This document shows, piece after piece, positions 1 to 6,679 of a stretch of DNA of 33,132 nucleotides (position 1 is the stretch's first letter; each line of letters opens with the position of its first letter). Source of the DNA: an uncultured Actinomycetes bacterium (GTDB lineage Bacteria > Actinomycetota > Acidimicrobiia > Acidimicrobiales > RAAP-2); assembly GCA_903871335.1 (NCBI GenBank), contig CAIQGE010000029.1:1-33132 (forward strand). The letters are read 5' to 3'. The notes beneath the pieces were generated by a model. The model did not search any database. It worked only from the letters and a program-made list of their open reading frames with translations, and was not told the DNA's origin. The position numbers and the translations under genes were made by a program.

Positions 1-74
1 CTTCCGGTGTCGATGACGCGGTGAGCCGCTTCAGTCCTGAACTCGAGAGTGAACTTCCTTCTGGTTGCTCCCAT
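1..74 (-). CDS. IS3-family transposase OrfA, N-terminal fragment (cut by window edge)
   Basis: The minus-strand ATG at 74 opens a frame beginning MGATRRKFTLEFRTEAAHRV, followed by IDTG. This is the familiar N-terminus of the IS3-family OrfA helix-turn-helix protein (basic start, then a [YF]-[TS]-x-E-F-[RK]-x-E-A pattern). OrfA binds the terminal repeats and, by programmed frameshifting with OrfB, normally gives the active OrfAB transposase. Only 24 complete codons are visible. A Shine-Dalgarno-like GGAAGGA lies about 7 bases upstream of the ATG. Family assignment is good; the subgroup cannot be decided from this fragment. Confidence 0.75.
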   Translation of the reverse strand, partial: MGATRRKFTLEFRTEAAHRVIDTG

Positions 75-90
75 TTGGACATCCTTCCAG

Positions 91-106
91 CCGACTCGTG
101 AGTCGG
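91..106 (-). promoter_or_regulatory. Inverted repeat in the IS3 leader, just upstream of the transposase RBS
   Basis: CCGACTC-GT-GAGTCGG on the plus strand is a perfect 7-bp inverted repeat with a 2-base centre. It lies between the terminal inverted repeat and the GGAAGGA ribosome-binding site of orfA. In a transcript entering from outside the IS it could fold next to the RBS. A protein-binding site is the alternative. Confidence 0.5.
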
Positions 107-140
107 ATTATTGGGTGTCCACTATTTCTGGGGAACCTCA

Positions 141-281
141 GTTCATTGACGCGAGCGCGAGAACTGAGACAACGACAGCAACGGCAAGTCCGAAGAACAC
201 GAATCGCCGTCGAAGACTTGCCCTCGGCGAACGATTCTCCTCACCTGCAGCAGAAGAAGTTGAATCGATAGCTTCGCTCAA
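141..281 (-). pseudogene. 5' remnant of a membrane-anchored or secreted protein gene, truncated by the IS3 insertion
   Basis: The minus strand encodes 47 codons from a TTG at 281. A polar, Ser/Glu-rich stretch (about residues 1-22) is followed by an Arg-rich LRRR and then a strongly hydrophobic segment FVFFGLAVAVVVSVLALAS. This is the classic layout of an N-terminal signal anchor or signal peptide with the positive side facing inward. The frame ends ATG AAC TGA, and the TGA is the first three bases of the IS3 terminal repeat, so the rest of the protein has been displaced. The TTG overlaps the TGA stop of the upstream 96-aa frame; a GTG at 308 in the same frame is an alternative start. The protein's function cannot be read from the anchor alone. 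Confidence 0.55.
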
Positions 282-568
282 CTTGAGGACCCGGGGTGGG
301 CGGCACACACCTGTGCGCGAGTTTTTCCAGGAGCGAACCAGGTCGGGTTGTCCATCGCGTCAGGTGGGTAGTACACGCCGGCGTAGAGTTCTGGGGTATT
401 TATTCCTACTGGATTCAAGTAAGTAGCTGAGCTTCCGCGGAGGTTCGAGAAATACATGTCACCCTTTTGCGGCCAATTTCGGGACGATTTGCGTTTGACA
501 TCCATCTGGAAAATCAGGGCCGAGATAAACCTATCGCCCCCGCGGTGACGCCACGTCGCATTAGCCAC
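278..568 (-). CDS. Hypothetical 96-aa protein (doubtful)
   Basis: This is a GTG-start frame whose start overlaps the stop of the carbinolamine dehydratase gene by 8 bases and whose TGA overlaps the TTG of the following truncated gene. The position fits translational coupling in a fumC-led transcript. The product has no motif I recognise. It is polar, with an aromatic and proline-rich middle (PELYAGVYYPPDAMDNPTWF) and no membrane segment. Codon third positions are less GC-rich than in neighbouring genes, which weakens the case. It could also be non-coding spacer or a decayed gene. Confidence 0.35.
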   Translation of the reverse strand: MANATWRHRGGDRFISALIFQMDVKRKSSRNWPQKGDMYFSNLRGSSATYLNPVGINTPELYAGVYYPPDAMDNPTWFAPGKTRAQVCAAHPGSSS

Positions 569-854
569 CCTCTACGGCGAGATCAAAAGCAGTCGCGATG
601 ACGAGGTCTAATTCGGTCACCCCACCGCGATCGTGGGTCCACAGTGTCACGCTCAACCCGTTGTACCCCACTTCACAGACTGGATGGTGGTCGCGTTCGC
701 GTACGACGTCACGAGTAGCGAGGAGGACGTCGAGGGCCTCATTGTAGGGAATGTGGTAGTCACAGCGCAGGCGATGCCCCTCGAGTCGCCAGCGCGGGTG
801 TGAACTCAAGAAAGACGCAATCGTGTCGTCGCCGAGAAGTGTCGGGCGGCTCAC
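561..854 (-). CDS. phhB: Pterin-4a-carbinolamine dehydratase
   Basis: The 97-aa product has the full length of the PCD/DCoH family, which dehydrates 4a-hydroxytetrahydrobiopterin after aromatic amino-acid hydroxylation. The active-site signature is present: an acidic residue before His56-His57-Pro58, then aromatic residues, His74 in LWTHD, and the late Asp83 in TELDLVIA. The GTG start shares GTGA with the stop of fumC, so the two are probably translationally coupled. No aromatic amino-acid hydroxylase is visible nearby. Many bacteria carry this gene without one, and a role with other pterin or molybdopterin cofactors is possible. The family call is firm; the physiological substrate is not. 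Confidence 0.88.
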
Positions 855-2239
855 GGGTGCGTCATCTTCGTGGGATCCACCGCCTCGTCAAACGCCTCGG
901 CGGACAGGAAGCCCAGCGCCAGCGCGCTCTCGCGCAACGTGGTCTTTTCCTTGTGCGCCTTCTTGGCGACCTGGGCGGCCTTGTCGTACCCGATAATCGG
1001 ATTGAGCGCCGTTACCAGCATCAAAGAATTGTTGAGGTGGTTCTGGATCTGGTCATAGTCCGGCTGCACGCCCTCGACACAGAACTCACGGAAGCGGTCG
1101 CACGCGTCGGTCAAGAGATCGAGCGAATGGCAGAAGTTGTAAATGATCACCGGCTTGCACACGTTGAGTTCTAAGTTGCCTCGAGCACCCGCGATCGACA
1201 CGGCTGCGTCATTCCCATAGACCTGAATGGCGACCATGATCATCGCCTCGGATTGGGTGGGGTTCACCTTGCCCGGCATGATGGAACTGCCCGGTTCATT
1301 CTCCGGCAACTGCAGTTCCCCGAGTCCACTGCGCGGACCGGATCCGAGCCAACGGAAGTCGTCGGCGATCTTCGTCAAGCTGGCCGCCAGGGTCTTCACA
1401 GCTCCGTGCGCGAAGACCAGTGCGTCGTGGGCCGCGAGAGCCGCAAACTTATTGGGTGCTGTCACGAACGGAAGACCGGTCAGGGACGCGATCTCGGCCG
1501 CGACGCGAGCGCCAAACTCGGGGTGCGTATTGAGTCCGGTTCCGACCGCGGTGCCGCCAGCCGCCAGTTCGTAGAGACCGGGAAGAACGACGCGGAGTCG
1601 TTCAATGTCAGCGTCGAGTTGTGACACGTAGCCAGAGAACTCTTGTCCGAGAGTGAGCGGTACGGCGTCCATCAAGTGAGTACGCCCGATCTTGGTCACG
1701 TCGGCGTATTCGATCGCTTTTTGATCCAGGGCGTCTCGCAGACGCTGCACCGACGGGATCAAACGCTCGACGATCTCGCGAGCCGCGGCGATGTGCATCG
1801 CGGTGGGGAACGTGTCGTTGGATGATTGGGACATGTTCACGTGATCATTGGGGTGCACGGGAGTCTTCGAACCCCGCTCGCCGCCGGCCATTTCGATCGC
1901 GCGATTCGAGATCACTTCGTTGACGTTCATATTCGTCTGCGTGCCTGACCCGGTCTGCCAAATACGAAGGGGGAATTCGTCAGCGAGCGTGCCATCGGCC
2001 ACTTCGGCGGCGGCCGCTTCAATCAGGGCCGCGCGCTCGTGGTCCAATTTTCCGAGCGCTTCGTTGACTCGTGCCGACGCCAGTTTCAAGACGCCGAAAG
2101 CGCGAATGACGGCGGGGGGCATGGTGTCGTGGGCAATGGCGAAATGATGCAAGCTGCGTGCCGTTTGAGCACCCCAGTAGCGATCCGCCGGGACCTCAAT
2201 CTCGCCCATCGTGTCGGACTCAATTCGTACATTGCTCAC
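851..2239 (-). CDS. fumC: Fumarate hydratase, class II
   Basis: FumC interconverts fumarate and L-malate in the cytosol as part of the TCA cycle, without an iron-sulfur cluster. The 462-aa product matches the family length. It carries the fumarase/aspartase signature [11 protein letters not shown] near residue 316 and the catalytic-region motif [16 protein letters not shown] near residue 183. I chose the GTG at 2239 because AAAGGAG lies 5 bases upstream and the protein then starts [16 protein letters not shown], as in homologues; the frame is open further upstream but without family similarity. It diverges from the PPOX gene and heads a short minus-strand unit with the pterin dehydratase. Confidence 0.97.
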
Positions 2240-2363
2240 TGGCACTCCTTTGCTCGCTTGGCTCCAGTTTCCACCTTCGCGCGCCTCGAAGTCCAAACCG
2301 AGAGCCGGGGATTTTCGTCCGTGGCAGGGGCTAACCTAAAGCAACGACCGAAGGGAAACTCCG

Positions 2364-2762
2364 TTGAGCGACATTCTTTCTGACGCGTCCCGCGCGATCA
2401 TTGCTAAAAAAGTCTTGGCCCACGTCGCCTCCCTCGGACCCGAAGGTGAGCCCCACGTCACCCCGGTGTGGGTGACCCTGGATGGCGATGATCTGATCAT
2501 CAACACCGCGCTCGGACGCGCCAAGGCTCGCAATCTGGCGAACGACGCCCGTGTCGCGGTGTCCCTGACCGACCCTGATAATGCATACTCCGTCATCGCG
2601 GTACGAGGCAGCGTGATCGGCTTCACGACCGACGGAGCGGACGACGTCATCGACTCTCTCGCCAAGAAGTACCTCGACCTCGACACCTACCCCTTCCGTC
2701 GCGAGGGCGAAGTTCGCGTCACCGTCCGCATACGCACTGATCGCATCGCTCAACAGCCGTAG
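2364..2762 (+). CDS. PPOX-class flavoprotein, probably F420-dependent
   Basis: The 132-aa product has the split beta-barrel pattern of the pyridoxamine 5'-phosphate oxidase-like superfamily: an N-terminal helix, then GEPHVTPVWVTLDGDDLIIN and a later DPDNAYSVIAVRGSV strand pair. Small actinobacterial proteins of this type usually bind F420 or a flavin and reduce or bind varied substrates, so the exact reaction cannot be assigned. The start is a TTG with AAGGGAAA upstream; a TAACCT hexamer at 2333-2338 could be its -10 element. It is divergent from fumC, with 124 bases between the two starts, and is followed 20 bases later by the acyltransferase gene. Confidence 0.8.
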   Translation: MSDILSDASRAIIAKKVLAHVASLGPEGEPHVTPVWVTLDGDDLIINTALGRAKARNLANDARVAVSLTDPDNAYSVIAVRGSVIGFTTDGADDVIDSLAKKYLDLDTYPFRREGEVRVTVRIRTDRIAQQP

Positions 2763-2782
2763 TTCCGCAAACGTCGCCGTCC

Positions 2783-4762
2783 GTGTCTCCTGAAGATCTC
2801 GCCACCCGCGAGGGTGCGCCGATCGTCGCCTTCACGTCGGACGAACATCCCGTTCAGCGCAGTCGGGCGCTCGATGGAATGCGCGCTTTCGCCGTCGTGG
2901 TGGTCATGGCGTTTCACGGTGGCCTTACTCGTTTTCACGGAGGCTTCCTCGGCGTCGATGTGTTCTTCGCCCTGTCGGGCTACCTCATCACCTCGCTTCT
3001 CGTCAACGAATTCGACCAACGACGCACCATCGCATTCGGCCGTTTTTGGTTGCGCCGGGCCAAGCGCCTGCTGCCCGCCCTCATGGTGGTCATCCTGGCC
3101 GTGTGCCTCAGCGCCCTCTGGCTTACTGCGCCGGGATACCACTCGTCACTGCACGCGGACGTGCTCGCGTCGTTCTTTTACGTTGCGAACTGGCACCTCA
3201 TGGGTCAAAATTCGAGCTACTTCGCGCTCCTCGACCCGCCATCGCTGCTGACCCACACGTGGTCACTATCCATTGAAGAGCAGTTCTACGTGCTTTGGCC
3301 GTTCGTGGTGTTCGGACTGATGAAGTGGCGACGCAATGCTCGACTGCTCGGGGTCGTCGCCGGCGCCGGCGCACTCGCCTCGGCGGGCATCATGGCCTAC
3401 GGACTGCACGCCAATTGGAGTACCGACCGCCTGTACTACGGCACTGACACGCACGCCGAAGGACTTCTCTGCGGCGCCGCACTCGCCTGTTTCCTCTTCG
3501 CGGCCCGCGAATCGGGAATGACGATGTCGCGCCTCACCGCGAACGTTGCTCACTGGATCAGGTTCGTCGGACCTCTCGCCATAGTGGGCGGCCTCGTTCT
3601 CATGGACCGGGCGTACGGAACCAGTACGTGGATGTTCCAAGGTGGTTTTCTCGGCGTCGCGATCTGCGCCAGTCTGACAATCCTCTATCTCGTGACGCTG
3701 CCGCAATCACTCGTGGCGCGGGGACTCGGGTGGGGACCTATCGTCTATGTCGGGCAAATTTCCTACGGCCTGTACCTCTGGCACTACCCGATCTTTCTCT
3801 GGATCACCTCTCAGCGTTCTTCGCTCCACGGACTCGCACTCTTCGCCCTGCGCGTAGTGGTTTCCGTCGCGGCTGCGGTCGTGAGCTACCACGTCATCGA
3901 AATGCCGATTCGTCGCCGCGCCTGGCCCACATCGCTGCGCGGAGTGGCGGTCGGTGTGCTCGCGCTGGCTCTCGTGCTCGGCACGTCGGTCACCATCGCG
4001 GACGCCGCGAACCGTATCCCGACGTCCACTCCACCAGGCGCGAGTACCTCACTCGCGCCCGTCCACGCGCTCATTCTCGGCGACTCCGAAGCACTCACCC
4101 TCGCGTTCAGCACGTCACGGTGGGGTCCGCACTACGGCCTGAAGGTCTACAGCGGCGCCATCTTGGGCTGTGGCCTTGTCCCCATGTCGCTCATGCGCAT
4201 CCACGGCACGGTCTCGTGGGCACGGAAGTTGTGTCGGCCACGTCGACACGACGCGACCGTCGCGCAGTTCTTGTGGGGCCGATCAATCCGTCGATCACAC
4301 CCGCACGTCATATTCGTGCTGTCCGGGCGCTGGGAGACACACGACATCTTTCTTCGAGGTCGCTGGCGGACGATCAATGACCCCCTCGTGCAACGGGACC
4401 TCGTCACCTCACTCACCATTATCAGCACTGACGCCGAGCGCGCCCACAGCACGCTGGTCCTCGCGACGTCACCGTGCACCTATGACGGCGAGCAAACGAA
4501 CGGCGAACCGTGGCCCGAGAACGATCCTCGGCGACTCGACGCCTACAACTACATCATTCGCGCCTACGCGTTGCCATTGCACTACCGCGTCTACGACCTC
4601 GACGCTCAGGTGTGCCCCGGTGGCCACTACTCAACGTTCTTGCACGGATACATGGTGCGCACCGCCGACGGGGTTCACTTTGCTCCGCAGTCAGCGCCTT
4701 TCGTCACACCGACACTCTTTCCGTACCTGCGCCGCGTAGCGACGAAATCACGTCACGCCTAG
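2783..4762 (+). CDS. OafA/YrhL-type membrane acyltransferase with C-terminal SGNH domain
   Basis: The 659-aa product has two parts. Residues of about 25-400 form an acyltransferase-3 domain: RALDGMRAFAVVVVMAFHGG with the conserved Arg/His pair, FLGVDVFFALSGYLITS, the hallmark TWSLSIEEQFYVLWP, and about ten hydrophobic segments. Residues of about 430-650 form a periplasm-facing SGNH-like domain with ILGDSEAL near residue 433 (nucleophile Ser) and DGVHFAP near residue 629 (Asp-x-x-His pair). Such fusions O-acylate cell-envelope glycans, the membrane part passing the acyl group across and the SGNH domain transferring it. The acceptor is unknown here. The GTG start follows the PPOX stop by 20 bases. 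The stop codon shares CTAG with the convergent gene. Confidence 0.9.
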   Translation: MSPEDLATREGAPIVAFTSDEHPVQRSRALDGMRAFAVVVVMAFHGGLTRFHGGFLGVDVFFALSGYLITSLLVNEFDQRRTIAFGRFWLRRAKRLLPALMVVILAVCLSALWLTAPGYHSSLHADVLASFFYVANWHLMGQNSSYFALLDPPSLLTHTWSLSIEEQFYVLWPFVVFGLMKWRRNARLLGVVAGAGALASAGIMAYGLHANWSTDRLYYGTDTHAEGLLCGAALACFLFAARESGMTMSRLTANVAHWIRFVGPLAIVGGLVLMDRAYGTSTWMFQGGFLGVAICASLTILYLVTLPQSLVARGLGWGPIVYVGQISYGLYLWHYPIFLWITSQRSSLHGLALFALRVVVSVAAAVVSYHVIEMPIRRRAWPTSLRGVAVGVLALALVLGTSVTIADAANRIPTSTPPGASTSLAPVHALILGDSEALTLAFSTSRWGPHYGLKVYSGAILGCGLVPMSLMRIHGTVSWARKLCRPRRHDATVAQFLWGRSIRRSHPHVIFVLSGRWETHDIFLRGRWRTINDPLVQRDLVTSLTIISTDAERAHSTLVLATSPCTYDGEQTNGEPWPENDPRRLDAYNYIIRAYALPLHYRVYDLDAQVCPGGHYSTFLHGYMVRTADGVHFAPQSAPFVTPTLFPYLRRVATKSRHA

Positions 4763-5929: not shown

Positions 5930-6679
5930 CTAGCCGTTCGGCTGGGGTCCGTTTTCCTCGGGAAATTCGAGAAGGAGACGCCGATCGGCCTCGCTGAGCC
6001 CATCGGTGTCCAGCAGGTCGGGGCGGCGACTCATGGTTCGCCGTAGGGCTTGGGCTCGCCGCCAGTGGGCCACTCGTCCGTGGTCGCCCGACCGGAGCAC
6101 GTCGGGAACAAGTCGCCCTTCAAATTCAGCGGGTTTCGTGTACTGCGGGTACTCGAGCAGGCCGTCGGAAAAAGACTCCTCGACGACCGATTCGTCGTTG
6201 CCGAGCGCCCCCGGCCGCAGGCGCACGACCGCCTCAATCACGCACAAGGCGGCCAACTCGCCCCCCGCCAGCACGAAGTCGCCAATGGAGATCTCGTCGT
6301 CCACCACCGCGTCGAGGGCGCGCTGATCAATGCCTTCGTAGCGACCACACAGCAAGGTGAAGCCGTCCGTCGCCGCCAGTTCGCGGGCGACCGATTGATC
6401 AAAGCGCCGCCCCGAGGGAGTGAGTGCGATCACCGGTCGGGGCAAATCGACGACCGAACGCACGGTGCGCACAATGGGTTCGGCCCGCAGGACCATGCCC
6501 GCGCCACCACCGAAGGGCGTGTCGTCGACGGTGCGGTGCGGATCATCGGTCTCGTTGCGGGGATCGTGACACCGCAGGCGCCAGACTCCCTTGTCGGCCG
6601 CGCGCTTGAGAATCGTGGCGTCGGCGTAGTGCTCGAGCAATTCGGGAAAGAGGGTGATGACGTCGATCTGCAGGGTCAT
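5930..6679 (-). CDS. trmD: tRNA (guanine37-N1)-methyltransferase
   Basis: TrmD uses S-adenosylmethionine to methylate G37 next to the anticodon, preventing +1 frameshifting. The 249-aa product shows the N-terminal [14 protein letters not shown], the [13 protein letters not shown] block, and the trefoil-knot cofactor site [15 protein letters not shown] followed by [17 protein letters not shown]. Its ATG shares ATGA with the stop of rimM, so translation is probably coupled. The C-terminal helical domain that contacts the tRNA is complete. Confidence 0.97.

Follow-up and report, generated by a model that had tools for sequence, protein, structure and literature searches.

The first bases of the contig studied here raise the question of what an insertion sequence (IS) interrupted at this site, and whether the interrupted frame was a gene belonging to the unit led by fumC. 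The window, i.e., the whole stretch of 33,132 nucleotides that we analysed, is contig C29 of the genome of an uncultured Actinomycetes bacterium, which is assembled in 39 contigs. An earlier note on this DNA had described a short minus-strand frame encoding a hydrophobic anchor, ended on a codon boundary by the terminal repeat of an IS3 element, and had proposed that the fumC-led unit once carried at least one more membrane or secreted protein.

The left end of the element and the frame it stops

Our re-reading of contig C29 agrees with that description in its sequence, its coordinates and the 47-codon frame starting at TTG 281. The frame ends with ...RASLRRRFVFFGLAVAVVVSVLALASMN, followed by the TGA at 140-138, and an alternative GTG start at position 308 would lengthen the same frame to 56 codons (Table 1). 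By eye, we recognised no ribosome-binding site before GTG 308 or TTG 281. The 5' part of the frame found no match in Pfam and only sub-cut-off matches in NCBIfam. It encodes a basic N-terminus (LRRR) followed by an 18-residue hydrophobic segment with a mean Kyte-Doolittle value of 2.83. This order of basic and hydrophobic residues suggests a secreted or membrane-anchored protein with putative export. When the 421-nt stretch was shuffled 1,000 times with its dinucleotides preserved, no frame matched this hydrophobicity, and it was equalled in 2 of the 78 tiles of the window.

Table 1. Features near the left end of the window and the continuation of the interrupted frame on contig C8.
Feature	Position	Strand	Remarks
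IS3-family element, left end	1..140	-	element cut by the contig end
orfA start codon	74-72	-	placed by comparison with orfA of L074
Terminal inverted repeat of the IS, tip TGAGG	115..140	-	26-bp match, both tips of the L074 element
TGA stop, outermost triplet of the IS	138..140	-	IS boundary from the alignment to L074
Target-site duplication AAC	141..143	-	second copy at C8:138-140
Putative interrupted orphan gene, 5' part	141..308	-	GTG 308 or TTG 281 start; 56 or 47 codons
Putative orphan gene, continuation	C8:141-464		same genome
Hydrophobic segment FVFFGLAVAVVVSVLALA	150..203	-	LRRR before the segment; signal peptide or anchor
Weak 96-codon frame between pcd and the orphan gene	278..568	-	probably not a gene
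pcd, pterin-4a-carbinolamine dehydratase gene	561..854	-	PF01329, 58.8 bits, cut-off 26
fumC, class II fumarase	851..2236	-	PF00206 and PF10415; start codon unsettled

The boundary of the element could be placed with a complete relative of 1,282 bp (L074:306-1587), to whose bases 1-140 the first 140 bases of the window are 89% identical. Because the first base of this complete element aligns with C29:140 (and likewise with C33:142332), the TGA is the outermost triplet of the left repeat. The earlier note had read the stop in the same way from the letters of the window, and had placed the insertion exactly on a codon boundary; the frame indeed reaches the TGA at the tip without a leftover base. 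The left tip of the IS reads TGAGGTTCCCCAGAAATAGTGGACAC, and the right tip, found on contig C8 (see below), is identical at 24 of 26 positions, i.e., the C29/C8 copy carries the terminal inverted repeats of the IS3 family.

The domain evidence comes from the relative, the window's copy being known from its ends with its interior unassembled. OrfB of L074 scores 247 bits with the NCBIfam model transpos_IS3 (cut-off 160) and carries an rve/DDE domain of the IS3 type (PF00665 and PF13276). Upstream of orfB lies orfA, whose product matches PF01527 (HTH_Tnp_1) at 50.7 bits and scores 35.3 with transpos_IS3, under the cut-off of 160, a value that refers to the complete transposase. An exact copy of the 27-base IS tip occurs in seven stretches from six named genomes, five labelled Acidimicrobiaceae (bog or palsa) and one an Actinomycetota bacterium (Porcupine7, L074). 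Over the 3,500 bases compared, L074 and G110, a genome of the same genus as the window, are the same DNA, which places the organism of the window among the actinobacteria of that genus. Among seven pairs of tips on the same contig in relatives, three have matching 3-bp flanks and four (L046, L048, L049 and L054) have non-matching ones, which suggests recombination between copies or mis-assembly.

How the element ends a gene depends on the phase of the insertion. A frame that enters the left end with zero leftover bases meets a stop at codon 1; with two leftover bases the stop comes at codon 7 (TAG), and with one at codon 37. Because a stop at codon 1 needs zero leftover bases, the IS tip itself stops a gene in one of the three insertion phases, and the codon-boundary position in the window is a 1-in-3 event. 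Across all loci we examined 34 IS tips, including those of related but different elements; the coding phase exceeded the threshold at three of them, and none of these three was in sense phase 0. For the 300-bp flank of the C29 copy, the best-scoring phase was phase 2, by an uninformative margin of 0.01. The first 141 bases of C29 are also the last 141 bases of contig C33, the 140 bases of the IS left end being 100% alike; such a shared end would be commonly expected where an assembly halts in a repeat. This second left end, at the end of C33 (L003:6099-6335 and 6333-6472), splits an alcohol-dehydrogenase-like gene (PF08240), again on a codon boundary, and the frame ends at the tip TGA.

The far flank and the joined frame

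A search of the genome with the complete element, in which 40 of 52 first-look candidates were scored, gave one right end besides the left ends on C29 and C33, located at the start of contig C8, and found neither the interior of the IS nor the right flank of the C33 copy, which is expected to begin with GTC. The right end occupies C8:1-137 and is followed by AAC (C8:138-140), which corresponds to C29:143-141. Target duplications of 3-4 bp are the range of the IS3 family; AAC stands on both sides of the C29/C8 copy, and AAT on either side of the L074 element. Farther along, C8 carries an acyltransferase gene (884-2974, plus strand) as well as pspAB (PF22742), a gene for an htpX-like M48 peptidase, and pspA, all three on the minus strand. 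Because the AAC duplication matches and the pcd...pspAB gene order agrees with that of relatives, C29 and C8 flank one insertion, and we infer that the two contigs are physically joined.

When the flanks are joined without the IS and with one AAC removed, the frame is open for 163 codons, with 107 residues past the site. The earlier note had proposed this reconstruction, in which the far flank is translated after removal of the target duplication, and its suggestion that an IS3-family element split a frame continuing beyond it was borne out by the uninterrupted reading across the empty site.

We compared the joined frame with dinucleotide shuffles. On the C8 side it is open for 108 codons, and 105 of 2,000 shuffles do likewise. 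From stop to stop it spans 180 codons, a length found in sense frames in 244 of 2,000 shuffles, and an antisense frame is longer (204 codons); open-frame length alone is unremarkable for this composition. The joined frame is the best of the six by codon use. Only 7 of 1,000 shuffles score as high in-frame, and 137 of 1,000 match the score in at least one of six frames. The score itself (-0.16) falls under those of all 38 pieces of 163 codons from 23 known genes (minimum +0.15), and the first 56 codons alone show no codon-usage signal (556 of 1,000 shuffles as high). Taken together, codon usage backs the joined frame moderately, and the hydrophobic segment is the strongest evidence for a gene.

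The joined frame stops at C8:462-464, and a 98-codon frame then follows one base out of step (L077, 441-739 on C8). This second frame has its start at seven consecutive T (C8:441-447); 74 of 2,000 shuffles open as long. Scored as one, the joined and the 98-codon frames surpass all 1,000 shuffles in-frame, and 15 of 1,000 shuffles equal them when the best of six frames is taken. The orphan gene may be longer and frameshifted, or may use slippage. Structure prediction of the two far-flank pieces, run without an alignment, gave mean pLDDT values of 36 and 48, and the models were set aside.

Homologues of the joined protein were sought in 98 other genomes of the genus, 396 of the order and 395 of the phylum, the order and phylum draws overlapping with some of the genus genomes, as well as in viral contigs and plasmids. 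The 98 genus genomes held no convincing homologue, the best E-value being 0.002: there were 14 weak matches in 11 genomes (E 0.002-0.1). Of these 14 loci, five were inspected as alignments and the other nine were judged on E-value alone; the alignment of the single phylum match was inspected too. No match was found at E 0.001 in the order genomes and none in the viral contigs or plasmids, and the phylum genomes gave one weak match (G798, E 4e-4). In the best genus match (G075), the similarity is confined to the basic and hydrophobic beginning of a LytR_cpsA_psr protein, and it was rejected. The match in G798, a flavin-reductase-like protein, shows 27% identity over 111 positions with 15 gaps and spans both frames, and it was likewise rejected. 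Loci L105 and L104 gave E-values of 2e-4 and 0.002 in a six-record database without composition correction and of 0.085 and 0.06 in the genome search, and were also discarded. We rejected the weak matches to the joined protein as presumably due to chance or shared composition. By these comparisons, the interrupted gene is a putative orphan, known from one bacterium among the genomes searched.

The fumC-pcd neighbourhood in the genus

A search for pcd in 36 other genomes of the genus gave matches in 21 and yielded 19 loci for comparison, in all of which fumC adjoins pcd. The sequence downstream of pcd ran to 1,491-1,515 bp in 17 loci, 621 bp in L020 and 331 bp in L023. In 17 of the 19 loci, pspAB is the next gene after pcd, on the opposite strand and 7-136 bp away as counted from the alignment ends. 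In the other two, an MFS transporter gene (MFS_1) shares the strand of pcd and begins about 0.4 kb beyond it (L021:2182-3252 and L024:2-1117), and pspAB was not found in them within the stretch examined. The MFS transporters are membrane proteins unrelated to the orphan frame.

None of the 19 loci has a relative of the orphan frame as a same-strand gene after pcd, just as there was no convincing match in the 98 other genus genomes. At E 1e-5, the 19 fumC-pcd loci gave no match to the joined frame or to the frame 278-568. The proposal in the earlier note that the fumC-led unit once carried this gene is contradicted by these loci, 17 with a convergent pspAB and two with an unrelated MFS gene. 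Relatives lacking any gene that continues in this frame downstream of fumC and pcd were what that note had named as evidence against its proposal. In this light, the orphan gene is apparently a lineage-specific addition and not an old member of the fumC unit, which corrects the view of it as part of the fumC-pcd neighbourhood of the genus.

The pcd-pspAB interval measures about 3.2 kb without the IS, as calculated from the coordinates, and includes a second acyltransferase gene. Because pcd and pspAB are neighbours in the 17 loci, this stretch is absent from them. The acyltransferase-3 proteins (PF01757) encoded at C8 884-2974 and at 2783-4762 of the window share 37% identity over 458 positions; their genes flank fumC-pcd, and the one on C8 sits within the stretch missing from the 17 same-genus loci.

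We also considered the 96-codon frame at 278-568 as a gene. It has no match in Pfam or NCBIfam, and it found a match in 1 of the 98 other genus genomes (E 0.006) with an internal stop in the matched sequence. Its codon score was reached in-frame by 50 of 1,000 shuffles and in the best of six frames by 209 of 1,000. With a single weak match containing a stop and no family, this frame was rejected as a gene and left as probably non-coding.

Interpretation and comparison with known systems

The reading we favour, at a probability of about 75%, is that a single IS3-family insertion broke a small lineage-specific gene between pcd and pspAB and left a stub product. The element would have inserted once and generated the 3-bp duplication AAC; judged by its complete relative, it would measure about 1.28 kb. 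Its target would have been a small gene restricted to this lineage. In the product, a single hydrophobic segment presumably followed a basic N-terminus and preceded a part that was exported or extracellular. The element would have entered directly past the hydrophobic segment and between codons, so that the TGA of the tip would be read as the next codon and the broken gene would give a stub of 47 or 56 residues. An IS-broken gene at C29/C8 is likely; the status of the frame as a gene, the export of its product and its inactivation by the insertion are our inferences. The stub would amount to hardly more than an anchor or signal peptide and is most likely without function.

Alternatively, the DNA that separates pcd from the acyltransferase gene could have been non-coding or already decayed when the element landed there, with the 163-codon frame and its hydrophobic stretch both accidental. 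We consider this unlikely, even though it would account for the want of a convincing homologue in the collections searched, for a weak codon signal that is absent in the first 56 codons, and for an open length that by itself is unremarkable. An accident would, however, have to produce a hydrophobic segment that none of the shuffles matched, a continuation across the site that few of them showed, and a combined score for the joined and out-of-step frames that was never reached in-frame and seldom in the best of six. A more elaborate idea builds on those two frames, namely that the broken gene belongs to a class of exported proteins that is very young and limited to one species, that its 163 and 98 codons gave one protein by slippage at the T run before the insertion, and that the IS stub survives as an anchor peptide; we hold this to be highly improbable.

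The earlier note had held that the cell could still make a clean 47-residue anchor peptide. It is more doubtful still that the insertion created a stable and useful mini membrane peptide of this kind, retained through the codon-boundary placement. The stub does end cleanly right after the hydrophobic segment, but one insertion in three falls on a codon boundary, the other copies show no visible phase preference (3 of 34 tips callable, none in sense phase 0), no ribosome-binding site was seen by eye, and the stub has no convincing relative in the 98 other genus genomes. We give the least credence to the idea that C29 and C8 are not the flanks of one insertion and were brought together by recombination between two IS copies. 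The same-contig tip pairs with differing flanks in relatives would fit such an event, but the AAC matches on both sides, which has a 1 in 64 chance of arising by accident, and 17 of the 19 same-genus loci share the order pcd...pspAB-htpX.

The broken gene is of little importance beyond annotation. A frame overlooked in a draft genome for its size and start codon can be checked via the far side of the element.

Compared with known systems, the element resembles the two-orf IS of the IS3 family with a DDE transposase in its tip TGAGG, its near-matching far repeat and its 3-bp duplication, as well as in the orfA and orfB present in L074. The assembled part of the window's copy consists of 140 bp on the left and 137 bp on the right, in which we found nothing unusual relative to the family. 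The event itself is ordinary insertional inactivation of an orphan gene. Among insertion-truncated genes that keep a partial product, it is akin to the case of ISAba1 in adeS, in which, according to PMC3498117, an IS also divides a membrane-protein gene. There, an IS promoter drives expression of the portion behind the IS, whose effect was tested, whereas here it is the part before the IS that is in question, and it is known from sequence alone.
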